Assembly (NCBI RefSeq): GCF_031951985.1
Contig: NZ_JAVLVU010000001.1
Coordinates: 1,736,001-1,800,000 of the forward strand
Direction of reading: 5' to 3'
Length of the DNA: 64,000 nucleotides
DNA from: Mucilaginibacter terrae
GTDB taxonomy: Bacteria; Bacteroidota; Bacteroidia; Sphingobacteriales; Sphingobacteriaceae
Position numbers and translations under genes: made by a program
Notes under the pieces: generated by a model
What the model was told of the DNA's origin: nothing
Database searches by the model: none
The model's input: the letters and a program-made list of their open reading frames with translations, nothing else
In this document: in pieces, positions 22,227 to 47,041 of the stretch
Layout of the letters: each line of letters starts with the position of its first letter
Position numbering within the stretch: position 1 is the stretch's first letter

Positions 22227-22265
22227 TTTGTTGTGAAGGTCAAATTTGCTTTGTTGTACGGGTCA
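22227..22265 (-). promoter_or_regulatory. Tandem TGAC-box operator, copy 1 (reductase-AraC operon)
   Basis: On the minus strand: TGAC-N6-AACAAA, spacer GCAAATT, TGAC-N6-AACAAA. The two half-sites start 23 bp apart. The same 39-bp architecture occurs at 37332-37370 and 47003-47041. It ends 52 bp from the reductase start codon. The rest of the gap up to the next plus-strand gene (22266-22570) has no other recognised feature. Confidence 0.75.
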
Positions 22266-22570
22266 TCTTTTTAAGGCAACTTCATTCGATAGCTGGTTGC
22301 CTCCCCTCCACCGTTCGAGCTTAGCCGTTGAACCTGAGCGTATTGCAACCGGACCTCTCTCAATCACTACCCTGGTCAAATTTGCAGACCGAACCAACAG
22401 CTTGAAATGCGGTCCCAAAAATTCTTGATTTTTTTTCGCGCCCGCCGAACTTTCGTATGAGTTACGGCATCATTACTCATATTTAACAATGTTAACTTAT
22501 GAACAAACAAAATTTCAAGCGAAGCATGGGTTCGGATACTACCGGCACCCGTAGGAGATCAGGAAAAAAG

Positions 22571-23659
22571 ATGACAAAAACTTTCAAGGGGATCAACCTG
22601 CTCTGTTGCTGTCTGCTAATGACCACGGTATCGACGGCCTCCTGCAGCAAGGAAGCAGATATTGCGGCTAATGGGCGCAATGACTACTTTAAACCCGACT
22701 CCGGTGTCCAGACCGGCGGTGCAAAGCTCATACCTGTCAAAACGGCGAAAGGAACATTCAACGTATGGACCAAAAGAGTGGGCAATAATCCCAAGATCAA
22801 GGTACTGATCCTGTCTGGCGGCCCCGGCGCGAGTTCTGAATACCTGGAATGCATGGATAGCTTTTTCCCACGGGAAGGGATTGAATACATTTACTATGAC
22901 CAATTGGCAACCGGACGCTCTGATAATCCGAAAGACACTGCGTTATTTGACCTGGGAAGGAGTGTTGAAGAGGTGGAGCAAGTACGAAAAGCGCTAAATC
23001 TGAATGCTGACAACTTTTATCTGTACGGGCATTCATGGGGCGGTATCGCTGCCATGGAATATGCGCTTAAATATCAGCAGAACCTGAAGGCGCTGATCGT
23101 GTCAGATATGATGTCGAGTGCTGCCGACTATAACCGATATGCCAACGACGTGTTAGCGAAACAGATCAACCCTGACGTATTAAAAGAGATCAGGGCGATC
23201 GAAGCCAAGGGAGATTTTGAAAATCCCCGCTATATGGAATTGCTCGTTCCGCATTTTTATGCCAAGTTCATTTGCCGTATTCCGGTCGAACAATGGCCGG
23301 AGCCATTGAACCGTGCTTTCGGAAAGATCAACCATGATTTTTACACCATCATGCAGGGACCAAGTGAGTTCGGGCTGCGGGGAAAATTGACCGGCTGGGA
23401 TATCAAGGCGAAGTTGCCAGGCATAACGGTCCCCGTACTGACCATTGGTGCCAGATATGACACCATGGATCCCGATCATATGAAATGGATCGCTTCGCAA
23501 GTTAAGCACGGCAGTTTCCTGTATTGCCCAAATGGCAGCCATATGTGCTTCTACGATGATCAGCAGGTTTACTTTCAGGGTCTGATCCAATTCATCAAAG
23601 CCATTGATTCCGGAAAGCAAGCGTTATCGTTCAATTCGTCATCAACAAAGGCACATTAA
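22571..23659 (+). CDS. Proline iminopeptidase-like alpha/beta hydrolase lipoprotein
   Basis: 362 residues from ATG at 22571, chosen because AGGA (22561-22564) is suitably placed and it gives a compact signal peptide with lipobox Cys in 'VSTASCSKEAD'; ATG at 22499 would add 24 polar residues. Alpha/beta hydrolase of the S33 peptidase type: oxyanion-region 'LSGGPGASSEYLE', nucleophile elbow GHSWGG, Asp in 'GARYDTMDPDHM', His in 'GSHMCFYDDQ'. It would hydrolyse N-terminal residues from peptides, or act as an esterase, anchored in an envelope membrane. It overlaps the next hydrolase by 1 bp. Confidence 0.92.
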   Translation: MTKTFKGINLLCCCLLMTTVSTASCSKEADIAANGRNDYFKPDSGVQTGGAKLIPVKTAKGTFNVWTKRVGNNPKIKVLILSGGPGASSEYLECMDSFFPREGIEYIYYDQLATGRSDNPKDTALFDLGRSVEEVEQVRKALNLNADNFYLYGHSWGGIAAMEYALKYQQNLKALIVSDMMSSAADYNRYANDVLAKQINPDVLKEIRAIEAKGDFENPRYMELLVPHFYAKFICRIPVEQWPEPLNRAFGKINHDFYTIMQGPSEFGLRGKLTGWDIKAKLPGITVPVLTIGARYDTMDPDHMKWIASQVKHGSFLYCPNGSHMCFYDDQQVYFQGLIQFIKAIDSGKQALSFNSSSTKAH

Positions 23660-24657
23660 TGAAAAGCTACCGATTTATGCAAGCTATAAAATTCATGACG
23701 GCGGTCTTGTTATGCCTGGTGTTAACGTCGACTCCCGCATTATCATCAACCCAGGCTGTACTTGAAAAAACTAACCTAAGCAACATGGAAGAGGGTGAAC
23801 ACTATGCGGACGTCAATGGCGTCCGCCTGCATTATTATGTCAGGGGGCATAAGCGTCCTGTCCTGCTCGTCCCCTCTCCGGGCTGGGGCGTAAATGTTAA
23901 CTATTTGATACCGATCCGTGTTTTTGAAAGGCATTTCACGGTTGTTTACGTTGATACGAGGCTCAGCGGAAAATCCTCCGGTCCGGCTGATGCTAGCCAA
24001 TATACGGAAGCGCACTTCATCGGCGATATCGAAGCGATGCGAAAACACCTGGGATTAGTGAAATTTTCCCTGGCGGGGCATTCGGCTTCCGGGCACCTTG
24101 TGTTAGCCTACGCCCTAGAACATGGGAAGAACCTGACAGCGCTGATCACCATCGATGCCATTGTTGCCCGCGACAGTCTTCGTGCCGCTGAGATGAAAGG
24201 GCGGATCGACAAAAAAGCGCAGGAGCCGTACTATAAGGCGCATCCTGCGATATACCGTAAAGCTTATGAACAGTTCTATGGCTTAAGCGGCAAAGAAGCA
24301 TCACTAAAACAACAGCTCATGACGTACGGATATTTCTATTTGTACGAACCATCAAAGGCACCTGCCCTGATCTCGCAGCTAAGCTTCAATGATACGGTAA
24401 ACACTTATACGGATCAGGCAGGCTATACCACGCAGAACCTTTTGCCTGAATTGCCCAGGATCACGGTGCCGACCTTGATCGTTTCCGGTGATGATGACTT
24501 TATTTGCGATCCTTTAACGCAGGCGACCCGCATGCATGGAAAGATCATCAATTCCAAGCTTTTGATCATCAAACAAAGCGGGCACTTTCCTTGGGTGGAA
24601 CAACCGCAACAGTTTGATTTTGCATGTGAGCAATGGTTACGGGGGCTTCGTTTATAA
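23659..24657 (+). CDS. Secreted alpha/beta hydrolase
   Basis: 332 residues. N-terminal signal peptide (hydrophobic 10-30, cleavage near 'ALSSTQA'). Alpha/beta hydrolase fold: 'VPSPGWGVN' in the HG-like position, 'VDTRLSGKS', nucleophile elbow GHSASG, Asp in 'VSGDDDFICDP', His in 'KQSGHFPWVEQP'. The ATG overlaps the preceding TAA by one base (TAATG), so the two hydrolases are translationally coupled. Substrate unknown; pairing with a proline iminopeptidase-like enzyme suggests peptide or ester turnover in the periplasm. Confidence 0.9.
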   Translation: MKSYRFMQAIKFMTAVLLCLVLTSTPALSSTQAVLEKTNLSNMEEGEHYADVNGVRLHYYVRGHKRPVLLVPSPGWGVNVNYLIPIRVFERHFTVVYVDTRLSGKSSGPADASQYTEAHFIGDIEAMRKHLGLVKFSLAGHSASGHLVLAYALEHGKNLTALITIDAIVARDSLRAAEMKGRIDKKAQEPYYKAHPAIYRKAYEQFYGLSGKEASLKQQLMTYGYFYLYEPSKAPALISQLSFNDTVNTYTDQAGYTTQNLLPELPRITVPTLIVSGDDDFICDPLTQATRMHGKIINSKLLIIKQSGHFPWVEQPQQFDFACEQWLRGLRL

Positions 24658-24703
24658 AGTTATCGAAACACCTTATTTCCCGGTACCCGGTTGACCAATC
24701 CTT

Positions 24704-24733
24704 GCCGGTAATGCTGATGCCAGCATTACCGGC
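24704..24733 (+). terminator. Stem-loop terminator after the hydrolase pair
   Basis: Perfect 13-bp arms (24704-24716 and 24721-24733), tetraloop ATGC, then a short TTT. It lies 47 bp after the hydrolase stop and before the response-regulator gene. Confidence 0.7.
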
Positions 24734-24776
24734 TTTCAGCTGAATAAACCATTAATCTTACGCCATTCCATGACCT

Positions 24777-25427
24777 ATGAAAACAAAGATTATTATTTTC
24801 GAACAAGACAAGTCTTTCCTCAGTACGATCTCGCAAATCCTAAAGACCGACCCGACCCTGGAAGTTGTGGGTGAGTTCCCGGAAGCAGCAGGTTGTCTGG
24901 AAAAAGTGATCCGGTACAATGCAGATATCGTTTTATTGGATATCGAAACAAAAGGAACCGGAATCGATATGATCACCGCCCTGAACAGCGAATTACCCCA
25001 TGTTCAAATACTTGTTCAAACAAGTGCGGACGATGAAATGATGATCGTTCAATGCATCAAGGCGGGGGCCGCAGGTTACCTCCGGAAAGCTGATCTAACC
25101 AGCAAATTAATTACCAGTATCAGTGAGCTAAGAAATGGTGGAGCGCCTATAAGCAGCGAGATCTCGCGGAAAGTCCTGAACATCATCTACCGCTCGCCTG
25201 ACCTTAAATCCATGCAGCCCCAGCCCGAAAATTGCTATAACCTGACCGCAAAGGAAAAAGAGGTTCTAAGCAATATTGTCAATGGGCTGAGCCACAAAAT
25301 GATCGCGGCTGACATGAGGATCCGCTATGATACGGTCCGCAATCATGTAAAGAAAATTTATGAGAAGCTTAATGTAGCTTCACTAACAGAGGTTGTCGCC
25401 AAAGCGATCTATCAGGAGATCGTTTAA
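24777..25427 (+). CDS. NarL/LuxR-type response regulator, orphan, atypical acidic pocket
   Basis: 216 residues, paralog of the regulator at 16337 along its whole length. The phosphoacceptor D55 is kept in 'IVLLDIETKG', but the usual acidic pair is E9-Q10 ('IIFEQDKS') and the loop after D55 lacks the M-P-G motif. The C-terminal HTH is intact ('LTAKEKEVLSNIVNGLSHKMIAADMRIRYDTVRNHVKKIYEKL'). No kinase gene is adjacent. It may respond to the kinase at 17000, compete with the first regulator at shared sites, or work without phosphorylation. Confidence 0.92.
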   Translation: MKTKIIIFEQDKSFLSTISQILKTDPTLEVVGEFPEAAGCLEKVIRYNADIVLLDIETKGTGIDMITALNSELPHVQILVQTSADDEMMIVQCIKAGAAGYLRKADLTSKLITSISELRNGGAPISSEISRKVLNIIYRSPDLKSMQPQPENCYNLTAKEKEVLSNIVNGLSHKMIAADMRIRYDTVRNHVKKIYEKLNVASLTEVVAKAIYQEIV

Positions 25428-25492
25428 GGCATTCATTTTAACCGGGTAAATCATTCGTGATCCACCCATCCTACCGGGATCTCAATTAGCGG

Positions 25493-25538
25493 CCGACCCC
25501 ATCAAATGATAAATGTTACTGTCATTTGATGGGGTCGG
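25493..25538 (+). terminator. Rho-independent terminator after the response regulator
   Basis: Perfect 17-bp arms (25493-25509 and 25522-25538) with a 12-nt loop and a following TTGTTT. Very strong stem. Confidence 0.85.
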
Positions 25539-25695
25539 TTGTTTAAAGGGTATTGCCTGCTGCTTCAAGGTTGATTCGCAGTGACCGGCGACGGCTTCCC
25601 GTTCGTCGATTACCTATGATAAGCGACCAACAGCATGGCTGCCGGCTCCTTACCCATCGCCGCGGTTATCCGTTCACCTCGTTGGCAAGGCACGC

Positions 25696-26163
25696 TTACT
25701 GCTGGGCAGGATGGGAAGATTTACGGAGATCGACGTTAAAAACTTCATCATCCGGCAAAACGCACAAACTATCAGTCTCTATCATATAGGCAATAGTTCC
25801 ATGTACCACAGCATGCCTTGACCTGAGGCGGATCTTCTGCTCGAACGTTGCCTCCTGATTAAAGTAAGCAAGCCTCATTCTAAAGAGGTCACTATAAATA
25901 ACTGTGGGCTGGCTTTCTTTGATGCCACCAACTAACTCAAATTGTGTTGATGGTAAAAAGGATATCCGGGTCGGGATCGGGCCGCCCTCAGGTACGGTCG
26001 TCGAGTAGATCAAGCATTCCGGGCCTATCTCTGCCCTGATCCTGAGCGTAGCTTCGTCCCCGTGGCGTTCAACAACTGAATATGACCAGGTTACCTGCGT
26101 TTGTGCCGATACGCCAATACCGCAAAGCAGAAGCGACAAGGTCAGGATGATACATTTTTTCAT
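25696..26163 (-). CDS. Stand-alone DsbD alpha-domain-like secreted protein
   Basis: 155 residues. Signal peptide to about residue 20 (GIGVSAQ). The mature part follows the pattern of the N-terminal domain of DsbD: 'VTWSYSVVER', 'ECLIYSTTVPEGGPIPTRISF', 'GIKESQP', 'RLAYFNQEATFEQKI', 'HGTIAYMIETDSLCVLPDDEVFNVDL'. DsbD normally carries two cysteines in the YMxC...C segment for passing electrons; only one is visible here, plus one in 'PECLIYS', so redox activity is doubtful. Single-gene unit at the end of the minus strand before the ECF sigma gene. Confidence 0.75.
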   Translation of the reverse strand: MKKCIILTLSLLLCGIGVSAQTQVTWSYSVVERHGDEATLRIRAEIGPECLIYSTTVPEGGPIPTRISFLPSTQFELVGGIKESQPTVIYSDLFRMRLAYFNQEATFEQKIRLRSRHAVVHGTIAYMIETDSLCVLPDDEVFNVDLRKSSHPAQQ

Positions 26164-26409
26164 AGCGTGTATATTGGTGAACTACAAAATAACGTACCCG
26201 GGAAGATGATCCCTACAGCCGGAATAGAGGGTTTTTAATACCCAAAATGGGGATGGAGCTGGCGTAGCTGTTGTATCGATCCGCCTCTTGAAAAATAATT
26301 GGAGTCAACAGAACAGCCCCCGGTCGCAACTGGCGGCCATAACCGCAAAAGTGCAGGCTAAGCGAGCGTTCAGTAAAGCTTTTGAGTCGGTGCAGGCCTG
26401 TAAGAACCG

Positions 26410-27399
26410 TTACGAATAACTGCTTCCCACTTGCAAGTCAGGCCTCGGCGCGTGATAAAGTTTAAGACGCTTCATGGACCTGTCGTCTCTTTCTATAACG
26501 ACCAGGGACCCCGGCGGGCAATGAGTGGGATGCTCTTCGGAATTGCTGAACCGGATCCGCATCACAGAGATCTCCCCGGATGTGATGCATCCCGAGACAT
26601 GCTCGATGCCGCTTCCATGTTCCAGGTCGTCATAGATGGAGGCAATGAACTTATCTTTTCCGTGCAACCGCTTTCCACTGGTCAGTACCATCTCGAGCTC
26701 ACCGTTAAGATGGCGGTCCAGTTCACGGAACGCAGCACCATCCTGATGTATTGCAGGCATCAATTCTTTATAATACCGGTTCCATTGCCGCGACCTTTCC
26801 ACTTCAATGCCTGGATCTATTTTGTCGATGTGCCACTGTTTTACCAATTCGGCCTTTCCGGCACTTAGCCGGCTCCTAACCGTTCCTACCGGAATGTCCA
26901 AAACTTCGGCGATCTGGGCGTAGCTGTTATAAGCACTAAAATACCTTAAAATCAAGGGCTGTTTCAGAACCGGGGAAATGTTGGCGAGTGAGGCGTATAG
27001 GTGGTCTCTTTCCTCAAGGCTTTCAATGTGCCGCTCAATACTGTCTTCTACGGGTTCGAAATTTTGCGTTCCGTAAGGAACCTCAGCTTTTGATCTCATT
27101 TTCCGCATGAGCTGATAGCAGCTGTTCAGGGTTATGCGTTTGAGCCATGGCCGGATGGCATTGATGTCCCGAAGTTGATGAAACTTCAAATAAGCGGTGA
27201 TCAGTGCATCCTGGATGGCATCATCCGCACGTTCATAGCCGCATATTCTTAAAGCAATGGCAAATAGTTCTGCCCTGTACTGATCGCAGGCAGCGGCAAA
27301 GAGCTGGTGATCGCCAGGGGCGGCAGACGGTGACGTCTGCTGTTCAGCAACATCAATTGGGTCTCTCAAAATAAGTTTGCTCTCCGTATCGGGTGACAT
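26410..27399 (-). CDS. ECF RNA polymerase sigma factor with C-terminal SnoaL-like domain
   Basis: 329 residues. Sigma region 2 is at about 35-100 ('YRAELFAIALRICGYERADDAIQDALITAYLKF'), region 4 at about 135-190 ('QPLILRYFSAYNSYAQIAEVLDIPVGTVRSRLSAGKAEL'). The last 120 residues ('LMPAIHQDGAAFRELDRHL...MVLTSGKRLHGKDKFIASIYDDL') look like an NTF2/SnoaL-type domain, as in ECF groups where the C-terminal extension acts in place of an anti-sigma factor. Divergent from the SusCD-linked sigma gene. Its target promoters are unknown. Confidence 0.88.
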   Translation of the reverse strand: MSPDTESKLILRDPIDVAEQQTSPSAAPGDHQLFAAACDQYRAELFAIALRICGYERADDAIQDALITAYLKFHQLRDINAIRPWLKRITLNSCYQLMRKMRSKAEVPYGTQNFEPVEDSIERHIESLEERDHLYASLANISPVLKQPLILRYFSAYNSYAQIAEVLDIPVGTVRSRLSAGKAELVKQWHIDKIDPGIEVERSRQWNRYYKELMPAIHQDGAAFRELDRHLNGELEMVLTSGKRLHGKDKFIASIYDDLEHGSGIEHVSGCITSGEISVMRIRFSNSEEHPTHCPPGSLVVIERDDRSMKRLKLYHAPRPDLQVGSSYS

Positions 27400-27746
27400 T
27401 TAATTCCTTGAACTTTTCCCATCGGTAACGCTCCCCTTTCCCGAATATTATATTGTTCCTGTCATTTATGATCCGCTGACACTCCAAAAATAATGGCCGT
27501 CGTGTGGCATATACCCTCGCCGGAGCAACCTACCGATCTTTCAAAACACCGGCCGGGGCATCAACCTATGGCACCGGATAAAGGCCTTTGGCCCAAAGAC
27601 AAAATCCCGGCAGGACAGGGTATCAGGCCCGTTCAGCCAAAAATTAATGTTTAGACTTGACCGGACCATTAAGGTTCGGTACTTCGAAAGCATAAGATTT
27701 AATATTATTTTAACCTTCGTCGAAAAAGTATTACTTTTCATCTTAA
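27400..27746. other. Divergent intergenic region between two ECF sigma genes
   Basis: About 350 bp, AT-rich near the plus-strand start. TATTACTTTTC just before 27747 is a weak match to the -7 box. No gene, strong hairpin or repeat was seen. Both sigma genes must be transcribed from here. Confidence 0.5.
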
Positions 27747-28331
27747 ATGACAAAGGAAGTGCCATTAGCAGATGAAGAATTGGTCGAACGCCTCAGGCAG
27801 AGCGACCAGTCTGCTTACGCGACCATCTTTCAGAAATATAATACCCTTCTTTTTGCACATGCCTATAAGAAGCTTCAGGACAAAAATGAGGCCCAGGATC
27901 TGGTTCAGGAAATATTTTTGTCGCTTTGGAAGAACCGCGAACATGCGCAGATCGATAATCTCATGGCCTACTTATTTACGGCGGTCCGCTATAAGTTCTT
28001 CAACATCATTTCTCATAAGCAGGTCGAAGCAAAGCATTTGGAATCCTTGCGTAACTTTGTCGGAAGCGAGACACCTATCGCTGATTATCTTGTCCGGGAA
28101 CGCATTTTCATGGAACTTATCGAACACGAGATCAGTTTACTTCCACCCCGGATGCGCCTGGTGTTCCAAATGAGCCGGAAGCAACATCTTTCACACAAAG
28201 AAATAGCTTTAGAATTAGGCATTTCGGAACAAACGGTAACAGATCAGATCAAAAAAGCCTTAAAAATACTACGACCGCGTCTTAGCATGCTCTGTTATGT
28301 CGCTTTGACGATCGAATTGTGCCATAATTAA
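27747..28331 (+). CDS. ECF sigma factor (FecI/SusCD-associated)
   Basis: 194 residues, the size of Bacteroidota FecI-like sigma factors. Region 2: 'YATIFQKYNTLLFAHAYKKLQDKNEAQDLVQEIFLSLWKNRE' (about 24-65); region 4: 'LPPRMRLVFQMSRKQHLSHKEIALELGISEQTVTDQIKKALKIL' (about 132-176). Followed by a FecR-type anti-sigma gene (84-bp gap), SusC and SusD, so it should drive the SusCD locus when its anti-sigma factor receives an outer-membrane signal. Confidence 0.95.
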   Translation: MTKEVPLADEELVERLRQSDQSAYATIFQKYNTLLFAHAYKKLQDKNEAQDLVQEIFLSLWKNREHAQIDNLMAYLFTAVRYKFFNIISHKQVEAKHLESLRNFVGSETPIADYLVRERIFMELIEHEISLLPPRMRLVFQMSRKQHLSHKEIALELGISEQTVTDQIKKALKILRPRLSMLCYVALTIELCHN

Positions 28332-28415
28332 TTTTTTTTGTAAAAATATTCTTTTCGACATCCCCCTTTCTGCAACTTTAGATGACATGGTAGATATAAA
28401 AGGTAAAACTTTGAT

Positions 28416-29537
28416 ATGCCAAAGCCAGACGAGTTAGAATTAATTAGAAAATACCAGGACGGAACTGCCAGTGAAGAAGAAAAAGCTTTACTGGAAACCT
28501 GGTATTTACACTATAACCAGCAGGAAGACAACCAGCTTTCAGAAAGTGAATATCAAGCCATATCGGCGGATATCTGGAAGAATCTGGACCATGCTTCAAG
28601 ACCTGCGGTCATTCGGAGGTTGAACTGGAGCAAGCTGGCGATAGCAGCCGCTATCCTATTATTCATAACCATCGGTACTTATTTCTACGTGAACAAGCCC
28701 TACAACAGGACACCACAGCAAATGGCTCAAAATATCATGCCGGGTGGCGATGCTGCTTACCTTACCTTATCTGATGGAAAGGTCATCGTGCTGAACAAGC
28801 GCAATATTGGCGACCTGGCAAATGAAGCGGGGGTTACGATCAAAAAGACCACACCTGGGGAATTGATTTACGAGGCCGACCTACAGGCTGAGGGCGTAAC
28901 GGCTGAAAAGAATACGATCACCACGCCGAATGGTGGGCAGTATACGGTCATCCTTTCGGATGGAACAAAGATTTGGCTCAACGCTGGTTCTTCCCTCACC
29001 TTCCCTTCAAGGTTCACGGGAGATTTCAGGGAAGTAGACCTTAAAGGCGAGGGCTATTTCGAAGTGGCGAAGGACAGCTCCCATCCATTTCACGTACTTG
29101 CCGGCGGGCAAGAGATCAGCGTCCTCGGCACACACTTTAATGTCAGTGCCTATTCCGATGAGCCGTCTATCCGCACCACCCTCGTGGAAGGATCGGTTAA
29201 GGTAACGCATCATGGGCAAAGTTTCATGCTATCTCCTAATGACCGGGTTACGGATCAACGTAAAGATGGCCATCTGAGGCTTGAACACGGGATAGATGCT
29301 GACGAGGACATCGCCTGGAAATCGGGAAGGTTCTACTTCAATAATACCGCTGTATCTACCGTATTAAGACAGGTTGGCCGCTGGTATAACTTAGACATCG
29401 TATACGAGGGGAAAGTGCCCGGGGATTTCCTGAGTGGATCCATGTCCCGTAACCAGGACCTTTCCCAGGTGGCCAAGCTGCTTGCATTGACCGGTATAAA
29501 ATTCAGAATAGAAGGGAGGAAACTTATCGTTCAGTAA
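28416..29537 (+). CDS. FecR family anti-sigma factor
   Basis: 373 residues: cytoplasmic sigma-binding N-terminus (1-70, 'LIRKYQDGTASEEEKALLETWY'), one transmembrane helix at about 76-92 ('LAIAAAILLFITIGTYFYV'), then the periplasmic FecR domain ('TPNGGQYTVILSDGTKIWLNAGSSLTFPSRF...VDLKGEGYFEVAKD...GTHFNVSAY') and the C-terminal DUF4974-type signalling domain from about 300. It relays signal from the TonB-dependent receptor SusC next door to the sigma factor. Length and layout are normal for the family. Confidence 0.96.
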   Translation: MPKPDELELIRKYQDGTASEEEKALLETWYLHYNQQEDNQLSESEYQAISADIWKNLDHASRPAVIRRLNWSKLAIAAAILLFITIGTYFYVNKPYNRTPQQMAQNIMPGGDAAYLTLSDGKVIVLNKRNIGDLANEAGVTIKKTTPGELIYEADLQAEGVTAEKNTITTPNGGQYTVILSDGTKIWLNAGSSLTFPSRFTGDFREVDLKGEGYFEVAKDSSHPFHVLAGGQEISVLGTHFNVSAYSDEPSIRTTLVEGSVKVTHHGQSFMLSPNDRVTDQRKDGHLRLEHGIDADEDIAWKSGRFYFNNTAVSTVLRQVGRWYNLDIVYEGKVPGDFLSGSMSRNQDLSQVAKLLALTGIKFRIEGRKLIVQ

Positions 29538-29597
29538 ATCGCACCTGCCCATTACGATCCGCGGCGAGGCCGTAGATTTCAGGTTCGCAAAAAAAAA

Positions 29598-29623: not shown

Positions 29624-29695
29624 CAATAATTTTGGGAACTGGTTACAACTATTGATTCTCTCTAAGCTTATTTCCAACCCAAAACATACAAAAGT

Positions 29696-37331: not shown

Positions 37332-37370
37332 TGACAGAAAGAACAAAGCAAAATTGACCATTTAAACAAA
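37332..37370 (+). promoter_or_regulatory. Tandem TGAC-box operator, copy 2 (AraC gene)
   Basis: TGAC-N6-AACAAA, spacer GCAAAAT, TGAC-N6-AACAAA, half-sites 23 bp apart, same strand as the AraC gene and ending 80 bp before its ATG. Matches the elements at 22227 and 47003 in gene orientation. Confidence 0.75.
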
Positions 37371-37450
37371 GCAAAGCGACTCACAAATGTCTAACTTAGT
37401 AATCAATTTGCGTTCAATACCTGTACCGGCTATATATTGAGAATTAAAAA

Positions 37451-38269
37451 ATGGCAATTCAAAAACCCTTTCCGTTTGCGCAGATGATCTGGACCGTCGT
37501 TGAGGACAAGTTCTTTAAAGATGAGATCATCCTGGAATTTCATTCCTTTGTACGCATCATTTCCGGCGAAATGAAGGTGGTTCAGGCAGACCGGTCTTAC
37601 ATCTTCGGCCCGGGAAGTACGCTTCTTTTCCCCCGCAACCAGCTATCGGCAGTGATCAAGCAACCCAAAGATGGCGAGCCATATAAAGCTGTGGTGCTTG
37701 GTTTGACATTGGAGCGCCTGAAAACATTCTACGCCAAGCACAAGCCCGTATTCTGTGCTGCTGCCAATCATCAGGTGAGGATATTTGACGGCCACCCGCT
37801 GCTGGAAAGCTTTTTTGCCTCATTGATGCCTTATTTTGACCTGGAGCAAAAACTTCCGGAGAGTGTGTCGTCGCTTAAAGTAGAGGAAGCCATCGCTATC
37901 CTTCGCTTTATCGACCCTGGCACAGATAACCTTTTGGCTGACTTTTCAGAACCTGGAAAAATCAATCTGGCGGAGTTTATGAACAAGCATTACATGTTCA
38001 ATATGCCAATGGAGAAATTCGGCTATCTGACAGGACGCAGTTTATCCACTTTCAGCCGTGATTTCAAGAAATCTTTCCGGATCACGCCTCAAAAATGGCT
38101 TACCCGGAAGCGGCTGGAATTAGCCCATTATCAGATCGCGGAAAAGCACAGGAAAGCTGTTGACGTGTATCTGGAAACCGGCTTTGAAAACCTTTCCCAT
38201 TTTTCTTATGCATTTAAAAAGCATTTTGGTTACGCCCCGACCGAATTGCCAGGGAGACACGCGGTATAA
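37451..38269 (+). CDS. AraC family transcriptional regulator
   Basis: 272 residues. N-terminal cupin-like sensing domain (about 1-150, 'FHSFVRIISGEMKVVQADRSYIFGPGSTLLFPRNQLSAV') and C-terminal AraC domain: first HTH 'MEKFGYLTGRSLSTFSRDFKKSFRITPQKWLTRKRLELAH', second 'KAVDVYLETGFENLSHFSYAFKKHFGYAP'. It is the intact paralog of the frameshifted gene at 20394-21183. Its promoter carries the tandem TGAC box also found at two other loci; with the paralog broken, it is the best candidate for reading all three. Next gene in the same direction is the GH92 glycosidase, 127 bp on. Confidence 0.95.
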   Translation: MAIQKPFPFAQMIWTVVEDKFFKDEIILEFHSFVRIISGEMKVVQADRSYIFGPGSTLLFPRNQLSAVIKQPKDGEPYKAVVLGLTLERLKTFYAKHKPVFCAAANHQVRIFDGHPLLESFFASLMPYFDLEQKLPESVSSLKVEEAIAILRFIDPGTDNLLADFSEPGKINLAEFMNKHYMFNMPMEKFGYLTGRSLSTFSRDFKKSFRITPQKWLTRKRLELAHYQIAEKHRKAVDVYLETGFENLSHFSYAFKKHFGYAPTELPGRHAV

Positions 38270-41300: not shown

Positions 41301-41540
41301 TTCTCAAAAATAACTATTGGTCTGGGCAGGCAATATGGTCGCGGAAAAAGCTTTACCATTGTAGCCAAAAACGCATCGAGAACCAATAAATATGTGCAGC
41401 AGGCGGTGCTGAACGGCAAGCTATTGAATAACTTCTGGTTCCCGGCACAGGAATTATTGAAAGGCGGCGAACTGGTGTTAACCATGGGTGATAAACCAAA
41501 TACGAATTGGGGGGTGGGTGCTTTGCCGAAACGTGATTAA
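38397..41540 (+). CDS. GH92-family alpha-mannosidase-like glycoside hydrolase with N-terminal beta-sandwich domain
   Basis: 1047 residues. Signal peptide to about 21 (SIAQAQ). Residues about 25-205 ('WKIGEADDSSAGLALAP...LMFDQVRLQGP') resemble the rhamnogalacturonate-lyase-type beta-sandwich domain; the GH92 body follows. HYVEGNAWQ places the likely general acid at E832, and GDEDQGQMSAW gives D932/D934 as the base/Ca region, both typical of GH92. The usual GNEP-type motif reads GNQQSMH here, so subsite specificity may differ. GH92 enzymes are calcium-dependent exo-alpha-mannosidases on N-glycans or mannan. Codon use looks more AT-leaning than the neighbouring ICE genes, suggesting separate acquisition. 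Confidence 0.9.
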   Translation: MKYLPFLVSAMLSLVFSIAQAQNTVWKIGEADDSSAGLALAPNKYAHFLDHDFGWEDRYFLIGYSNPATDWPYALPGPKDGWGGTGPTSGVRSNSLNILFGLENAPVKGKYSFEISFAGIHSKFPPLLKVLINGRSYKYRLPKRYNDKAIEGDTTGYVTFTYAIPFTDSLLKKGGNEIQLTTLDGSWLMFDQVRLQGPVGVKLIKPKDFFVREVKVAAYEMVNNGKRYQPLLVDVQHLTGKPKLTVKLDGKQLFAQQLDSARYQFEVLMPAVSSAKTSKYEILKNGVVIQTGSVQRSPKALFTYADYANTTMGTGHSRWMIAPGPWMPFSMVKISPDNQNSGWSAGYDPIHESIGTFSHIHEWTMAALGTFPTSGTLKTRIGDESDKGDGYRSKIDKSTEKAPVGYYSVLLTDHNIKAELTATTRCSFQRYTYPKGIQQRVMVDLKVPAEYDYQLKNVSLKQTADNRLEGYSEQFSKDVWSGINQEYTVHFVMEFNRPIKQFGTWVNDDISEKSIDAIASPKFAGAFVEFDESKGTVVQVRTGISLVSIENAAKNLNEEVTVPFGWSFDKVHNAHRDAWNKLFARLQVNTNDYREKMRFYTNMYRALASRNTWSDIDGRWVDASKKVQQFTDKTSVALGCDAFWNTFWNLNQFWNMVTPEWSSKWVKSQLAMYDADGWLAKGPAGMNYIPVMVAEHEIPLIVGAYQMGIRDFDAEKAFAAAYKMQTTPAQRVGKAGHAGNDDLVTYLEHKYVPYDKGRFSNSLEYSFDDWTVSQFAKALGKQKEFEQFKERGNYWRNVIDKETGYARLKKSDGSWMPGFDPFKSGANEHYVEGNAWQLTYFVPQDVPALANTIGVDKFTERLSWGFTESDKLRFNAPGDQYWDYPVIQGNQQSMHFAFLFNWMKKPWLTQRWSRTIVDRFYGYGASNAYLGDEDQGQMSAWFIMNAIGLFQTDGGTHTQPIYEIGSPIFSKITIGLGRQYGRGKSFTIVAKNASRTNKYVQQAVLNGKLLNNFWFPAQELLKGGELVLTMGDKPNTNWGVGALPKRD

Positions 41541-41871
41541 TTTTAAGGTTTAGATTTTCGTTATCAGACAACTGCATCATAAACCAACTTAGGCTTGATG
41601 ACGTCCTGAAAATGCGCCCTTAGACCGTGCCTAGGAATGGAAGTTTTATATGGCTAAAAAGCACGACCGGCGATTATAAATAGTTCCGATTAACGTTCCA
41701 AAAGGCTAAGGATTGATCGAAATGACATTCAGGACATATTTAGATACCTTCGCAAATGGAATATCAGCACAGATCTGGCTATTAAATAGACAAATAAGGG
41801 GATGTTTTAGTAGTTACCTAGCCGCTAGTTTTGGTCTGCTAACACGAAGTTGAACAACGCTTAAAATCCTT
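41541..41871. other. Intergenic region without recognised gene
   Basis: About 330 bp between the GH92 and cytochrome genes. AT-rich, stop codons in all frames I could follow, no strong hairpin or repeat. It presumably contains the promoter for the cytochrome c gene at 41872. Confidence 0.5.
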
Positions 41872-42462
41872 ATGAAAAAAGTCTTTTATTTGTCCATAGT
41901 TGCTTTGATCGTACCTGCAACCCTCCTATTCTCCTGCGGTGAACCTGCAAAGGGCAACAAGTCAGGTGTCGCAGTTTTGCAGAAGAACAGCCTTGTGGAC
42001 CGGGGCAAATATCTGGTTACTACGATCGGGTGCAACGACTGCCACTCTCCAAAGAGCCTCGGGCCGAACGGCCCGGAGATTATTACCAACAGGATGCTGT
42101 CAGGCTACCCGGATATCCGTCCCTTACCAAAATTCCCGGAGGATGTTTTGAAAAAGGGACTTGTGGTGATGAGTGGGGACTTGACTGCGGCGGCAGGTCC
42201 ATGGGGTACATCCTTTGCAGCCAATTTAACCCCTGATGATACCGGAATTGGTAATTGGACAGAAGCTCAATTTAAAAATGCGCTTACTCATGGTAAATTT
42301 AAGGGTTTGGACGGGAGTCGCACGCTTATGCCGCCGATGCCGTGGCAGAACTACACCCACATGAACGATGGTGATATCAAAGCGATATTTGCTTACTTAA
42401 AGTCCATTCCGGCAGTCAAAAACATTGTGCCTCCATACCGCCCAGCAAAACGCTCATCATAA
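41872..42462 (+). CDS. Membrane-anchored monoheme cytochrome c
   Basis: 196 residues. Lipoprotein signal with lipobox 'TLLFSCGEPAKG' (Cys near 22). One heme-binding CxxCH (CNDCH, near residues 54-58) and a distal 'LMPPMPWQNYTHMND' segment with candidate Met ligands. 'RGKYLVTTIGCNDCHSPK' and 'DGDIKAIFAYLKSIP' are typical of class I cytochromes that accompany dehydrogenases. It would carry electrons at the periplasmic side of a membrane. No partner dehydrogenase is adjacent, so its donor is unknown. Confidence 0.9.
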   Translation: MKKVFYLSIVALIVPATLLFSCGEPAKGNKSGVAVLQKNSLVDRGKYLVTTIGCNDCHSPKSLGPNGPEIITNRMLSGYPDIRPLPKFPEDVLKKGLVVMSGDLTAAAGPWGTSFAANLTPDDTGIGNWTEAQFKNALTHGKFKGLDGSRTLMPPMPWQNYTHMNDGDIKAIFAYLKSIPAVKNIVPPYRPAKRSS

Positions 42463-42490
42463 ATAAGCAATTGAGCAGTGCTATGATACA

Positions 42491-42524
42491 AACCAAAAGC
42501 CGCTCTAATTTGCGGCTTTTGGTT
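42491..42524. terminator. Bidirectional terminator between convergent genes
   Basis: Perfect 13-bp arms (AACCAAAAGCCGC / GCGGCTTTTGGTT), 8-nt loop, A-rich left and T-rich right flanks. It serves the cytochrome gene and the convergent ene-reductase gene. Confidence 0.9.
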
Positions 42525-42535
42525 TTGCAGTCACA

Positions 42536-43648
42536 TCAGGTGGCCGGGTTGACACTATAGGCCGGATAATCTGCAAACCCATTTGCCCCTCCTGAATAAA
42601 ACGTATTGGTATCAGGGGCAGACAATGGCCAATGGTTTCTGATCCGCTCGACCAGGTCTGGATTGGCAATAAAGTCCGTAGCGAAAGATACGAGGTCGCA
42701 TTTTCCCTGTTCGATCATTATCTCGGCACTGTCTGCGTTTAATCCAAGATTCGCCATTATCGTTCCGGTATACTTGCTGCGAAACCACCCGTAGAAGTTT
42801 TCGTGCCAAGCCGAAACCGCTGTGTTTTCAAGTGAAACCCGTGGCCCCACAAGTTCAATAAATGCCAGACCATAGTTGGTAAGTTTTTGAAGTATAAACT
42901 CGAATGTGTCAACGGTATCATCATCCGGCCCAATGATACCATGATTAAAAGCTGCGGGTGTGAATTTTATACCAACTGTGTTTGGTGGGAATACTTCGTT
43001 AAGGGCGTCCAGTATCTCGAATAAAATGCGGCACCTGTTCGCTACGCTTCCTCCATATTCATCGGTTCGAATATTGGTCGCAGCGCTTAAGAACTGCGGT
43101 ATCAATGTAAAAAGTTGCGCGTGCAACTCAATACCATCAAAACCCGCTTGTTTGGCATTTAGCGCGGCCTGTCTGAATTGGCCGACTGTAGCTTTAATCG
43201 CATCGATCGTATAGGCCCTGGGTTTAAGTGTCGGGGTAAACCCTGTTGGAATATAAACATTTTCCATTGGGTTGACCGCGGAAGGGCCAAATGGCAAATC
43301 ACCGTTAAGGTAATAGGGATGCGATACAGCGCCGGAATGCACAAGCTGTACAAAGATCTTGCCGCCGCTGTCATGTACCCTTTCGGTCACTTGCTTCCAG
43401 CCCTCGACCTGTCCGGCAGTATAAATCCCAGGTATATTAAGATACCCAACGGCCTGTTGACTAACCCAAACGCTTTCCGTCAATATTAGCCCTGCACTTG
43501 CCCGTTGTCCATAATACTCGGCATGTAGCGGCGTAGGTGCCATGGCCTCGTTTGTTGCTCGCGCGCGGGTCATCGAAGCCATTACAATCCTGTTCGCCAG
43601 TTGGACGCTCCCTAAATTGTATCCCGTGAATAAATGATTATGTTCCAT
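42536..43648 (-). CDS. Old yellow enzyme family ene-reductase (NemA-like)
   Basis: 370 residues. FMN-dependent TIM barrel: 'LANRIVMASMTRARATNEAMAPTPLHAEYYGQRASAGLILTE' at the N-terminus, 'FVQLVHSGAVSHP' (phosphate/substrate His region), 'FRQAALNAKQAGFDGIELHAQLFTLIPQFLSAATNIRTDEYGGSVANRCRILFEI' and 'DLVSFATDFIANPDLVERI'. The usual H-GAN/H-GAH pair is HAQ, so the ligand-contact residue after the His differs. It reduces activated C=C bonds or nitro compounds using NAD(P)H. Divergent from an HxlR-type regulator, a common arrangement for electrophile-inducible reductases. Confidence 0.94.
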   Translation of the reverse strand: MEHNHLFTGYNLGSVQLANRIVMASMTRARATNEAMAPTPLHAEYYGQRASAGLILTESVWVSQQAVGYLNIPGIYTAGQVEGWKQVTERVHDSGGKIFVQLVHSGAVSHPYYLNGDLPFGPSAVNPMENVYIPTGFTPTLKPRAYTIDAIKATVGQFRQAALNAKQAGFDGIELHAQLFTLIPQFLSAATNIRTDEYGGSVANRCRILFEILDALNEVFPPNTVGIKFTPAAFNHGIIGPDDDTVDTFEFILQKLTNYGLAFIELVGPRVSLENTAVSAWHENFYGWFRSKYTGTIMANLGLNADSAEIMIEQGKCDLVSFATDFIANPDLVERIRNHWPLSAPDTNTFYSGGANGFADYPAYSVNPAT

Positions 43649-43712
43649 TTCTTTTTAGGGCAAATCTCAAAGGAAACAGAACAGCCTGCAATAAGGGACA
43701 ATGCAATCCTTT

Positions 43713-43763
43713 GGGGAAAATATTTTCCCCTGTGGTATGGAATTGTTCCTATACCTATTTTTG
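43713..43763. promoter_or_regulatory. Palindromic operator and -7 box between ene-reductase and HxlR genes
   Basis: GGGGAAAATATTTTCCCC at 43713-43730 is a perfect 18-bp palindrome centred in the 135-bp divergent gap. A TANNTTTG box (TATTTTTG, 43756-43763) lies 20 bp before the HxlR ATG. The palindrome is the likely binding site of the HxlR dimer; no clear -33 element was seen. Confidence 0.55.
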
Positions 43764-43783
43764 TATCTCAAAATCTATCGCTC

Positions 43784-44158
43784 ATGTATGAAAAGAAGAT
43801 CCCCTTACCACTGGAGTGTGGTCTCACCATGACCAAAGAGATTTTAGGTGGTAAATGGAAACCTAATTTACTCCTTGCTATTTCTTTGGGAATCAAGCGG
43901 CCAAGCGATCTGCAAAGAGCGATCCCACACTCAACTAAGCGGGTTTTGAATCTTCAGCTGAAAGAACTGGAAGAGTTCAGGGTCATCACCAAACAGATTT
44001 ACCACCAGTTGCCGCCAAAAGTGGAGTACTTTCTTACAGATATTGGTGAATCACTACTACCCATACTGAAATCGATGGATGACTGGGGAAACCGAAACAG
44101 GGCAGTTATTGAGGCAGTTATCATCAATCGGAATGCTGCTGAGACGGAAGAACATTAA
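43784..44158 (+). CDS. HxlR family transcriptional regulator
   Basis: 124 residues from ATG at 43784 (MYEKKIPLPLECGLTMTKEILGGKWKPNLLLAI); the frame is open further upstream, but that overlaps the divergent promoter. HxlR core: a Cys at residue 12 (redox- or electrophile-sensitive in several HxlR/DUF24 proteins), 'ILGGKWKPNLLLAISLGIKRPSDLQRAIPHSTKRVLNLQLKELEEFRVITKQIYHQLPPKVEYFLTDIG', i.e. winged helix plus wing. Probably represses the ene-reductase divergently encoded next to it and responds to the same reactive compounds. Confidence 0.93.
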   Translation: MYEKKIPLPLECGLTMTKEILGGKWKPNLLLAISLGIKRPSDLQRAIPHSTKRVLNLQLKELEEFRVITKQIYHQLPPKVEYFLTDIGESLLPILKSMDDWGNRNRAVIEAVIINRNAAETEEH

Positions 44159-44301
44159 TTATCTACAGCTGGAAAATCAATGATTGATGTCGGCTTGAAT
44201 TGAAGATTTCATCAACTAATTCTGTCCATTTATGGCTATATTTAGGGTTGATTGCCTTTGTATCAATGTATCATAGAACATTGGTAAAATACTAATCTCC
44301 C

Positions 44302-45426
44302 ATGATCAACAGATTCGATTATTCATCATTCGCCCGCCGTTTCGCCTTTCGATTTCCGTTTTATAGTTACGTCGGTACGCAGGTCTCCTTTTGGACGGCG
44401 GCTAATATCTTCATTGGCACCATTCTTCATTTTCATTCAAAGTTCATAGAAGAGGTGTATGGTGTTCCAATTAAAGGTGAAATATCACACACCTTAGTAG
44501 CTGCTATTTTTCAGGGCATATTTTATGGGATGATTCTTGGCACGACAGAGTTCTATCTGGAGAAATATTATCTCAGAAGGATGCCATTGGGCAAGATCAT
44601 TTTGCTTAAAGCAGTTTTATCGCTGTTCGTGAGCCTGATCATTCTTGGCCTGTTGTCAGCGACACCGGTTGATTTCAATATTCCGTCGATGATCCCAGGT
44701 CATACCGTTCTTGAAAACCACAAACCCTGGAGGTTCATCTTCTACCAGTTCATCATATTCTATTCAGTATTAACGCTGTTGATCAGCTTTATAAATCAGG
44801 TCAACAAGAAGTACGGACCAGGTATCATTTTACCGATGTTGTTTGGAAAGTACCGTGAGCCGGTAGAAGAGAATAGGATCTTTATGTTTATGGACCTGAA
44901 ATCCTCAACGACGATTGCTGAGGTGCTGGGTCATTTAAAGTATAGTTCCTTCATCAGGGATAGCTTCCACGATATTAACCAGCTGCTGACTACTTATAAT
45001 GCGGAAGTCTATCAATATGTCGGCGATGAAATGGTTCTGAGTTGGAAAGTTGACAAGATGATATCCTATCGCGCGTGCGTTGAATTTTTCTTTGCCTGCA
45101 AAGACCTGTTCAAAAACCGTTACGATTACTACCATAGCAATTATGGTTTTTTTCCTAAGTTCAAGGCCGGTTTGCATATGGGGCTAGTTACGGCGGTTGA
45201 GATCGGCGATGTTAAGCGGGACATCGCCTATCATGGAGACACGATCAATACGACCGCAAGAATACAAAGTGTCTGCAATAAATTCGCTAAAGATCTGCTT
45301 ATTTCGTCCGTTCTCCTGGAGAAAATAGGCCAACAGAACCAGCTAATTACCGAGTTTATGGGATCAATTCAACTGAAGGGAAAACTAACTGATATAGCAA
45401 TACTCAGTATTGAACGGCGCTCGTAA
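44302..45426 (+). CDS. Membrane-bound class III adenylate/guanylate cyclase
   Basis: 374 residues. The N-terminal half has about four membrane segments (roughly 25-45, 65-85, 105-125, 150-170). The cyclase domain spans about 200-372: metal-binding Asp in 'FMFMDLKSSTTIAE' and second Asp in 'YQYVGDEMVLSW', 'AGLHMGLVTAVEIGD', 'YHGDTINTTARIQ'. The 'VGDEMV' motif and 'NTTARIQ' (Asn and Arg transition-state residues) point to an active enzyme. Nucleotide specificity cannot be settled. No regulator or cNMP-binding protein is adjacent. Confidence 0.92.
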   Translation: MINRFDYSSFARRFAFRFPFYSYVGTQVSFWTAANIFIGTILHFHSKFIEEVYGVPIKGEISHTLVAAIFQGIFYGMILGTTEFYLEKYYLRRMPLGKIILLKAVLSLFVSLIILGLLSATPVDFNIPSMIPGHTVLENHKPWRFIFYQFIIFYSVLTLLISFINQVNKKYGPGIILPMLFGKYREPVEENRIFMFMDLKSSTTIAEVLGHLKYSSFIRDSFHDINQLLTTYNAEVYQYVGDEMVLSWKVDKMISYRACVEFFFACKDLFKNRYDYYHSNYGFFPKFKAGLHMGLVTAVEIGDVKRDIAYHGDTINTTARIQSVCNKFAKDLLISSVLLEKIGQQNQLITEFMGSIQLKGKLTDIAILSIERRS

Positions 45427-45561
45427 ACATTGATTTTTTATACCGGGTAACCTTGCGATCAACGCTGGCCTTTAATGTCAGAATTAAAGGCTATCTGCAA
45501 TTTATTGAGCTTGCTGTATTACGCTATCCGGTTGGAGGGAAAGAGTAGGGTTGCTCTCAAC

Positions 45562-45593
45562 AAAAACCACACCCGCCGGCGGGTGTGGTTTTT
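45562..45593. terminator. Bidirectional terminator between convergent genes
   Basis: A 32-bp perfect palindrome (16-bp arms, AAAAACCACACCCGCC and its complement) followed by TTTTGTTTTT on the plus strand; the A-rich left side serves the minus-strand monooxygenase unit. Confidence 0.9.
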
Positions 45594-45598
45594 TGTTT

Positions 45599-45970
45599 TT
45601 ATTTGCTCACTGCTTGACCGTAAGAGAAGAATCTTCCTGCCTCCACACCCTGCTTCATGCCTTTCATAAAATGGGATGAATATGCCCCAAGTAATTCCAG
45701 ACGATCGATTTTCCAGTCTACCTTATATTTTTCGGAAAGCGGTTTGATCAGTTCCAAGTGCGCTAAAAATGCCGATTCATTAACATAAGCTTCCACTATT
45801 AAGCATTGAAATGTTTCCGGGTCATAGTAGCATTCATGCGTAAGTACTTTCTCCGGCCCTTCGTTTGCAACAATTTCTCTGGTTTCAAGAACCATTTGTT
45901 TGAAGACTTCCCAGTCGTTTGGATTGACCGTCGCGGCGGCATTTAGTCGCACTATCGATTGATTTGACAT
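45599..45970 (-). CDS. Antibiotic biosynthesis monooxygenase (ABM)-type protein
   Basis: 123 residues, ferredoxin-like fold of the ABM/YgiN type: 'VRLNAAATVNPNDWEVFKQMVLETREIVANEGPEKVLTHECYYDPETFQCLIVEAYVNESAFLAHLE'. YgiN-like proteins act on quinones without cofactors. It follows the quinone oxidoreductase gene by 10 bp in the same operon, which supports a shared role in quinone or electrophile handling. Expression probably comes from the TGAC-box promoter upstream of that gene. Confidence 0.85.
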   Translation of the reverse strand: MSNQSIVRLNAAATVNPNDWEVFKQMVLETREIVANEGPEKVLTHECYYDPETFQCLIVEAYVNESAFLAHLELIKPLSEKYKVDWKIDRLELLGAYSSHFMKGMKQGVEAGRFFSYGQAVSK

Positions 45971-45980
45971 TTTAAATTGA

Positions 45981-46955
45981 TTAAGGGGTTACGATAATTT
46001 TGCCAACGGCGTTTTTTGTTTGAATGATCGCGTGGGCTTTAGGCATGTCTTCTAATGGGAAGGTATGCGAAATATGGGTCCTGACCTCGCCAGAGGATAG
46101 CAAGCGGCCAATGGATTCAAGGTCCTGCTCGTAGGTCGGGTTCGGGCTAACGTTCACGCGCAAAACAGCCACTTCCTTTTCTGCCCTTGCTTGCTCAACA
46201 AAGACGGGGTCGGGATATATTACGAGGCTTAACAACGTTCCTCCCGGCTTTAACGATCGGAGTGACCGTTCAAGATGTTTATCATCATCACTCCATACCG
46301 TATCATGAACAAGGTCTGCATCCTTTACCAAGTCTTCGAATCGCTGTGTTTGGTAGTCGATAAATTCGTCAGCACCTAAACTCAATACAAACTCACGATT
46401 TTGGCCCGAAGCAACGCCAATCACATAAGCTCCAAAATGTTTGGCGAACTGTACCGCGAAGTGTCCTACGCCTCCGGATGCGCCATGAATGATGACCTTA
46501 TCACCCTTTTTGATTTCCCCTACGTTTACGATCGAAACCCAAGCGGTCAATGCGGACATAGTTGCACCGGCAGCTTCCTTAAAGCTGACGTTGGCAGGCT
46601 TCATTACCATTTCGGTTTCGGGCGCTGCTACATATTCCGCATAAGCGTTTGCCTGGCCAACAAATTTGAAATTGCCGAAAACTTCATCGCCCTTTTTAAA
46701 CTTAGTAACGGCCCGACCTGCTTCTGTAACAATACCGGCAACATCCCAACCTAAGATAATATGCTCTTCTGTTCCTTTGTAGGAATACACCCAGTTCAGG
46801 GCCTCTTTGGTCCTTCTTACAAAGGCATCTACAGGATTAATACTAATAGCCTTTACTTGTACCAATACTTCATTGTCTTTTATTTGCGGCACAGGCACAT
46901 CTGCCAATACCAGATTCTCGGGTCCCCCGATCTCTTTTAAAACTATTGCTCTCAT
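45981..46955 (-). CDS. Zinc-independent MDR-family quinone oxidoreductase
   Basis: 324 residues from ATG at 46955 (MRAIVLKEIGGPENLVLADVPVPQIKDNEVLVQV); the open frame extends 7 codons upstream. Medium-chain reductase: GroES-like N-domain, Rossmann domain with 'VIIHGASGGVGHFAVQFAKHFGAYVIGVAS', 'LGADEFIDYQ' and 'HDTVWSDDDK'. Structural-zinc cysteines are absent, as in the QOR branch. It reduces quinones or enones with NADPH. First gene of an operon with the ABM monooxygenase, and under the third tandem TGAC box. Confidence 0.93.
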   Translation of the reverse strand: MRAIVLKEIGGPENLVLADVPVPQIKDNEVLVQVKAISINPVDAFVRRTKEALNWVYSYKGTEEHIILGWDVAGIVTEAGRAVTKFKKGDEVFGNFKFVGQANAYAEYVAAPETEMVMKPANVSFKEAAGATMSALTAWVSIVNVGEIKKGDKVIIHGASGGVGHFAVQFAKHFGAYVIGVASGQNREFVLSLGADEFIDYQTQRFEDLVKDADLVHDTVWSDDDKHLERSLRSLKPGGTLLSLVIYPDPVFVEQARAEKEVAVLRVNVSPNPTYEQDLESIGRLLSSGEVRTHISHTFPLEDMPKAHAIIQTKNAVGKIIVTP

Positions 46956-47002
46956 TATGTAATTATTATGAAACAAATGTAGATGGGATTAAGCGGGGGC
47001 GT

Positions 47003-47041
47003 TTTGTTTAAAACGTCAACTTTACTTTGTTTAAATAGTCA
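47003..47041 (-). promoter_or_regulatory. Tandem TGAC-box operator, copy 3 (quinone oxidoreductase operon)
   Basis: Minus strand: TGAC-TATTTA-AACAAA, spacer GTAAAGT, TGAC-GTTTTA-AACAAA, half-sites 23 bp apart. It ends 47 bp from the start codon; a TACATTTG -7 box lies between (46974-46981). Same layout as copies at 22227 and 37332. Confidence 0.75.

Follow-up and report, generated by a model that had tools for sequence, protein, structure and literature searches.

A tandem-operator promoter probably used by ExsA_N-type AraC regulators to activate reductase genes in Mucilaginibacter terrae and other Bacteroidota

To our knowledge, few operators of AraC-type regulators have been defined letter by letter in the Bacteroidota. 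Among described systems, the closest in layout is ExsA of Pseudomonas aeruginosa: its promoters carry two head-to-tail sites, one over the −35 region and the other upstream, with 21–22 bp between −35 and −10 (PMC4552939, PMC7303211). In Escherichia coli, YqhC, a regulator of the AraC-N type, binds the promoter region of the yqhD-dkgA aldehyde-reductase operon (PMC8262776). Here, we describe a 39-bp tandem operator that occurs three times in a window of 64,000 nucleotides from Mucilaginibacter terrae (the whole stretch of DNA analyzed), upstream of reductase and AraC genes, and compare it with these systems and across related genomes. The explanation that we favor, and consider quite probable as a whole, is that ExsA_N-type AraC regulators activate reductase genes from a promoter built around this operator, with the regulators assigned to the individual operators as given below. 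A literature search returned no previous description of this operator, subscription papers being mostly outside its reach.

The three elements had been reported in an earlier note on this DNA, with the right coordinates and strands. Operator 1 (22227–22265, minus strand), operator 2 (37332–37370, plus strand) and operator 3 (47003–47041, minus strand) each match TGAC-N6-AACAAA-N7-TGAC-N6-AACAAA without a mismatch, and the 7-bp spacer and the 23-bp half-site period are as described there. The half-sites are TGACCCGTACAACAAA (22250–22265) and TGACCTTCACAACAAA (22227–22242) in operator 1, TGACAGAAAGAACAAA (37332–37347) and TGACCATTTAAACAAA (37355–37370) in operator 2, and TGACTATTTAAACAAA (47026–47041) and TGACGTTTTAAACAAA (47003–47018) in operator 3; all three operators share a C at half-site base 4. 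They lie 52, 80 and 47 bp, respectively, upstream of the ATG of a reductase, of an AraC-type regulator (AraC 37451) and of a quinone oxidoreductase (QOR). When up to three mismatches were allowed, the window contained three matches, compared to a mean of 0.02 in 100 shuffles, none of which held three, and the 5,485,925-base genome contained just these three sites, while a reversed control pattern had no match in it. A fourth operator of the same class, missed by the earlier note, was found elsewhere in the genome (L094). It is of the TGAG flavor, has a 22-bp period and a −7 box (TACCTTTG), and precedes a gene of the size of a short-chain dehydrogenase/reductase (SDR) and its own AraC gene, another paralogue, which lies approximately 1.1 kb downstream at 5422473.

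A −7-box-like element (NAnnTTTG), unseen in the earlier note, is positioned exactly 21 bp past the proximal AACAAA at all three window sites: GAATTTTG for operator 1 (22198–22205, minus strand), TAACTTAG, with one mismatch, for operator 2 (37392–37399, plus strand) and TACATTTG for operator 3 (46974–46981, minus strand). The −7 consensus of the primary sigma factor of Bacteroidota (sigma-ABfr) is TAnnTTTG (PMC7366714); operator 3 agrees with this stricter form exactly, and operators 1 and 2 with one mismatch each.

The search of relatives that the earlier note had proposed, carried out with the looser pattern TGA-N7-AACAAA-N7-TGA-N7-AACAAA in 399 genomes of the window organism’s family, gave 49 sites in 45 genomes, those of the window included, against one match of the reversed control. 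This search placed no demand on the −7 box; the window’s three sites were read from the window itself and the other family sites were fetched with their flanks. At offset 21, NAnnTTTG was exact at 42 of the 49 sites and present with at most one mismatch at 48 (38 and 44, respectively, of the 45 distinct downstream sequences), while the remaining 59 offsets held seven exact matches altogether. The stricter TAnnTTTG was exact at this position in 16 of the 49 and within one mismatch in 43. At a single site, L089, no −7 box was present even with one mismatch; this site falls within coding DNA and probably represents a chance match. Further, TTTG, the −33 motif, was absent from the 8 bases after AACAAA at all 49 sites, the presence of AACAAA at the −33 place being demanded by the search pattern. 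A composite 68-bp pattern, with at most one mismatch, gave 84 sites in 73 of 400 genomes of the same family and no control match. In a genus-level search, 21 sites were obtained in 18 of 149 genomes; seven of these sites (L004, L005, L008, L009, L016, L017 and L019), most of which fall within or close to coding sequence, were set aside.

That the elements are chance matches, a mobile repeat or the site of another factor is in our view very improbable. Chance matches do exist, as L089 shows; yet the control counts of one and zero, the varied flanks, the fixed position before genes and the co-variation with a single helix residue of AraC, described below, all speak against such an origin, and it was rejected on the shuffle and reversed-pattern controls, in line with what the earlier note had held.

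The position of the element relative to genes was consistent. A start codon was found 42–62 bp downstream in 69 of 76 pairs, and 47 of 51 inspected sites had the start of an AraC gene no more than 4.5 kb downstream. The first genes were mostly short-chain dehydrogenases, 59 of 73 matching adh_short. The same association was approached from the regulator: loci were chosen by AraC protein similarity alone, and the best 80 of 565 confirmed loci, to which the following counts refer, were mostly from Bacteroidota (Fibrisoma, Pedobacter, Chryseobacterium, Chitinophaga, Dyadobacter, Flavobacterium, Mucilaginibacter and others). A matrix trained on 40 family sites gave a composite score exceeding the 99% level of shuffles in 70 of these 80 loci, and a stricter finder, limited to the region upstream of AraC, placed a site in 61. 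Across the phylum, the half-site widens to YGRN-N6-AACAAA, and of 112 pairs, 92 have a period of 23 bp and 20 have one of 22 bp. The analysis extended over two samples of approximately 400 genomes and more than 20 named genera.

Compared to ExsA promoters, the promoters described here have, as far as sequence tells, the same tandem layout, with the proximal site over the −35/−33 position and a fixed distance to the −10/−7 element. They differ in that the core is a Bacteroidota −7 box and that the targets are reductases, not secretion genes; the half-site letters of ExsA also differ from those of the present operators. With sigma-ABfr promoters they share the −7 element, which has a fixed place in these operators, whereas the −33 TTTG is not in its expected place and the proximal AACAAA is found instead. 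Because the proximal half-site sits at the place of the −33 box, such a promoter would need an activator. Since AACAAA lies at −33 and no TTTG follows within 8 bases, the regulator probably activates by replacing the −33 contact, and the reductase genes are likely activated by it. The opposite, a repressor that binds over −33 and blocks RNA polymerase until an inducer releases it, would account for the overlap of the proximal half-site with this position, and we judge it unlikely: with AACAAA at −33 and no TTTG there would be little promoter to repress, the fixed 21 bp to the −7 box, seen at 48 of 49 sites, and a sigma-A-like −10 with an unchanged centre in two Bacillota (see below) fit a contact with polymerase, and ExsA, with the same layout, is an activator (PMC4552939).

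The claim that two of the units encode paralogous AraC proteins was borne out. AraC 37451 (37451–38269, plus strand) and AraC 20491 (20491–21183, minus strand) are diverged paralogues with 31% identity, and both contain the ExsA_N regulatory domain (PF22200; 51.9 and 97.1 bits, respectively, against a cut-off of 27), which they have in common with ExsA. AraC 37451 is intact, with two helix-turn-helix motifs (65.6 bits for HTH_18 against a cut-off of 33.6, an AraC/XylS-type double helix-turn-helix); the recognition helix of the first motif (HTH1) is predicted at residues 198–209 and holds S199 and S202. AraC 20491, which carries a lysine at the position of residue 202, is frameshifted near 20497, as the earlier note’s broken regulator copy implied: an intact relative aligns with residues 1–229 in frame −2 and with residues 198–260 in frame −3, so that the second helix-turn-helix (HTH2) is out of frame and HTH_18 scores 20.7 bits, below its cut-off. 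Because of the 31% identity, the two are likely separate regulators with two flavors of one operator. The crystal structure of the ExsA regulatory domain (4zua) matched by profile (1.9e-6) and by fold (TM 0.77 of target), and in the fold ranking by E-value the full-length CsvR, ToxT and Rns stood above 4zua. None of the curated NCBIfam AraC equivalogs (RhaS, FtrA, SoxS and others) matched AraC 37451 above its cut-off, the best being RhaS with 44.3 bits against 288. We do not claim membership of ExsA proper, which is under ExsC-ExsD-ExsE control, for these regulators. The likeness to YqhC, also an AraC-type regulator of an aldehyde-reductase operon, is one of description, and we know of no operator shared between the two. 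SoxS, MarA and RamA have the double helix-turn-helix domain in common with the present regulators, SoxS (7w5w) and RamA (7bef) matching the profile; members of that class have no regulatory domain and bind as single monomers.

We then compared regulator residues with operator bases, in the residue numbering of AraC 37451. Of 132 AraC open reading frames (ORFs), 112 had a site scoring at least 15, 110 of these were long enough and 77 were non-redundant at 85%; these 77 pairs served to compute the mutual information of AraC columns with the bases of the half-sites. For base 5, residue 202 was the top column in both half-sites, exceeding shuffles by 0.97 and 0.91 of 1.3 bits, while the runner-up column reached 0.43 and 0.36 bits, and it kept first rank when shuffling was confined to related regulators (z 13 to 17). 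All 51 pairs with K202, the AraC 20491 pair of the window among them, had C,C at base 5, whereas the 17 pairs with N202 had A or a mix of A, G and T, never C. R202 was paired with G,G (four pairs) or T,T (two pairs), and the single H202, Q202 and S202 pairs had A,A, C,C and A,C, respectively. A held-out set was assembled from 33 fetched loci, 28 of which had both an AraC and a site; ten were dropped as redundant and 18, all below 85% identity to the pairs analyzed first, were kept. K202 went with C,C in 16 of 16 of these, and the other two had I202 with A,A. In the proximal half-site, residue 199 was the leading column for bases 1 and 3 (z 11 to 14). In MarA, the counterparts of residues 199 and 202 would be the base-contacting Trp42 and Gln45. 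We predict a contact between residue 202 and base 5 and an influence of residue 199 on bases 1 and 3, and the operator promoter would be a variant of known AraC-type activator promoters with a one-residue code. Since both residues lie in the HTH1 helix, and the HTH2 stretch is nearly invariant in the AraC alignment, as AACAAA is in the operators, the variable block probably falls to HTH1 and the constant block to HTH2. The half-site period also tracks residue 202, being 22 bp in 6 of 6 pairs with arginine, 8 of 17 with asparagine and 2 of 51 with lysine; this association may reflect ancestry.

Which regulator runs which operator can be judged from three compact clusters in other genomes. In Fibrisoma montanum (L096), G455 (L231) and G360 (L233), the first found through AraC similarity and the other two through the operator pattern, orthologues of AraC 37451 (70, 69 and 65% identity, respectively), of the QOR (73, 69 and 69%) and of its small partner protein, of the antibiotic biosynthesis monooxygenase (ABM) type (69, 44 and 45%), are clustered. 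Operators, called with at most three mismatches, are located before AraC, before the QOR-ABM unit and before the reductase in Fibrisoma, all within approximately 6 kb; before the QOR, before the ABM-type gene and before AraC in G455; and before the QOR, before the ABM-type gene and before a second QOR paralogue in G360, where AraC lies two genes beyond that paralogue. The window holds the same units, dispersed over 25 kb. Because of these three clusters, operators 2 and 3 very likely belong to one regulon, with AraC 37451 as its probable regulator.

Operator 1 has a different flavor. Its half-sites score 18.6 and 24.2 bits as 20491-type and 16.2 and 19.2 bits as 37451-type, from small sets in which identical half-sites were removed from the 37451 set only, which favors the 20491 score; for operators 2 and 3, the 37451-type score is the higher one. 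Its base 5 is C,C, which matches the lysine of AraC 20491 and not the serine of AraC 37451, and on both grounds AraC 20491 is the likely original reader of operator 1. In Fibrisoma, the reductase orthologue (72% identical) has its own operator, which keeps C,C and scores 15.5 and 15.2 bits as 20491-type against 7.6 and 14.8 bits as 37451-type. In a search of the Fibrisoma genome with a 20491-type AraC as query (E up to 1e-10), in a record whose completeness is not stated, only the 37451 orthologue was found, and the composite pattern found just the three cluster operators there. A C,C operator with a 37451-type regulator as the only one found makes a takeover plausible, and AraC 37451 may have taken over operator 1.

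Pressed further, these observations allow that all three operators are one working regulon of AraC 37451 today, operator 1 having been handed over with the loss of AraC 20491; this is a real possibility, to which we give somewhat less than an even chance. The three Fibrisoma units with their operators and single regulator, the intact state of operator 1 next to a broken regulator gene and the chance that S202 tolerates any base 5 (A, C, T and G in operators 2 and 3) all agree with it, while the scores of both half-sites of operator 1 and of the Fibrisoma reductase operator, higher as 20491-type, do not, and because of this operator flavor a single regulator for all three was not adopted. Alternatively, AraC 20491 may have been the sole reader of operator 1, so that its frameshift, if recent, would have left an orphan with the reductase now silent or basal. 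The lysine match, the 20491-type half-sites and the frameshift are as expected for an orphan, which we regard as possible though doubtful, since operator 1 has not decayed and Fibrisoma has a like operator beside a 37451-type regulator with no 20491-type found. Separately, G357 has a TGACC-flavored operator (L088) before a reductase whose match extends over 100 residues only; no AraC was found downstream, and this is perhaps another orphan. The earlier proposal of an AraC regulon over several reductases, with one regulator copy broken, is thus upheld in kind; the three clusters support it strongly for sites 2 and 3, and site 1 may belong to the same regulon, Fibrisoma speaking for this and the 20491-type scores and C,C at base 5 against it.

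In the explanation that we favor, activation at reductase promoters by ExsA_N-type regulators, two AraC molecules would bind in tandem to head-to-tail half-sites 23 bp apart, each half-site consisting of two blocks separated by approximately one turn of the helix. HTH1 would likely read the variable block (TGANN; YGRNN phylum-wide) and HTH2 the invariant AACAAA, with the proximal half-site taking the place of the −33 box. AraC 37451 would drive its own gene through operator 2 and the QOR unit through operator 3, and operator 1, built for the now frameshifted AraC 20491, would be left to AraC 37451 if to anything. Operator 1 would then illustrate clearly how an operator can outlive its regulator. 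Sequence alone yields a precise promoter grammar, the family of its presumed regulators and a candidate protein–DNA contact, which would allow regulon prediction for a common class of reductase switches.

Several observations weigh against this explanation or parts of it. Activation is deduced from promoter geometry and the habit of the family. Ten of the 80 AraC loci had no site above the null, and 19 had none by the stricter finder; in the same genome, the AraC paralogue L095 (1722158) is without an operator, and in G360 none was found directly before the AraC gene with at most three mismatches. The −7 box of operator 2 is imperfect and its leader long (80 bp). On a tree of 95 regulators with 188 branches, the lysine state changed on five branches and the C,C state on four, four of them shared, so that only a few independent switches underlie the base-5 code, and the held-out set (16 lysines, two isoleucines) bears on lysine alone. 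Residue 199 was not a steady leader for bases 1 and 3 of the distal half-site, and T199 changed on six branches and G3 on 14, with three shared. Base 4 had no consistent reader, its top columns lying mostly in the N-terminal domain; under stratified shuffles residue 198 led for the distal copy (z 5.9–6.9) and not for the proximal one. The TGAC, TGAG, TGAA and TGAT flavors had made base 4 a candidate for the specificity letter, which was rejected for this lack of a consistent reader. Finally, S202 of AraC 37451 is the sole serine in the set and its presumed operators have A, C, T and G at base 5, and the code fails to predict them.

A bolder form, which we put forward only tentatively, would make residue 202, with weaker help from residue 199, a code from which specificity for base 5 of a phylum-wide operator could be read (K–C, N–A, R–G/T). 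The window would then show the promoter of a now defunct lysine regulator being captured by a serine paralogue that dropped the base-5 contact, and the module would have crossed to the Bacillota by swapping the −7 box for a sigma-A extended −10. If this were true, the regulon of such an AraC regulator could be read off its sequence. Of 394 genomes from the family of Cohnella lupini, a member of the Bacillota, two contained the SDR and AraC module with the tandem operator. In C. lupini (L100, 3700–3767) and in G1155 (L256, operator from 3389, reverse strand), the −7 box is replaced by TGATACAAT at the same centre, which is close to a sigma-A extended −10. The two AraC proteins are 91% identical, and therefore likely represent one event.

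With regard to the genes behind the operators, the first gene behind operator 1 (21215–22174, minus strand) encodes a NAD-dependent epimerase/SDR-type reductase (Pfam Epimerase, 6e-24), its start being chosen by homology over an earlier ATG at 22210. Operator 3 is followed by the zinc-type QOR (45981–46955, minus strand; Pfam ADH_zinc_N_2 and ADH_N), for which the nearest NCBIfam model, quinone_pig3, scored below its cut-off, and by the gene for the small partner protein (45599–45970, minus strand). The label monooxygenase given earlier to the latter had no backing from Pfam, where no acceptable match was found, or from NCBIfam, where there was none; it agrees with the predicted fold (pLDDT 77), which is closest to ABM proteins (3kkf at 3.1e-6). 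The ABM-type gene occurred in 1 of 395 class genomes, the window’s own, and is therefore useless as a wide marker. Its fold matches include PA0709, which is induced by glyoxal (PMC12274486). Overall, the operator targets are reductases, QOR, aldehyde dehydrogenases and the ABM-type protein, and from these targets and the glyoxal-linked fold match a reactive carbonyl or quinone is a fair guess for the inducer.

Elsewhere in the window, an SDR gene (8493–9431) and an AraC-like gene (9547–10461) have homologues (56 and 49%, respectively) within the Fibrisoma cluster, beside the orthologues of the reductase, AraC 37451 and QOR; therefore, that cluster may be represented in the window in scattered form by the whole 8–47 kb stretch. 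An ORF adjoining the Fibrisoma cluster (L096, 9091–9390) resembles a transposase and could bear on cluster mobility. Two neighboring ORFs of the window (52010–52438 and 52573–52956) look like one broken polysaccharide deacetylase gene, judging by a Pfam match of the first, the one that was searched.

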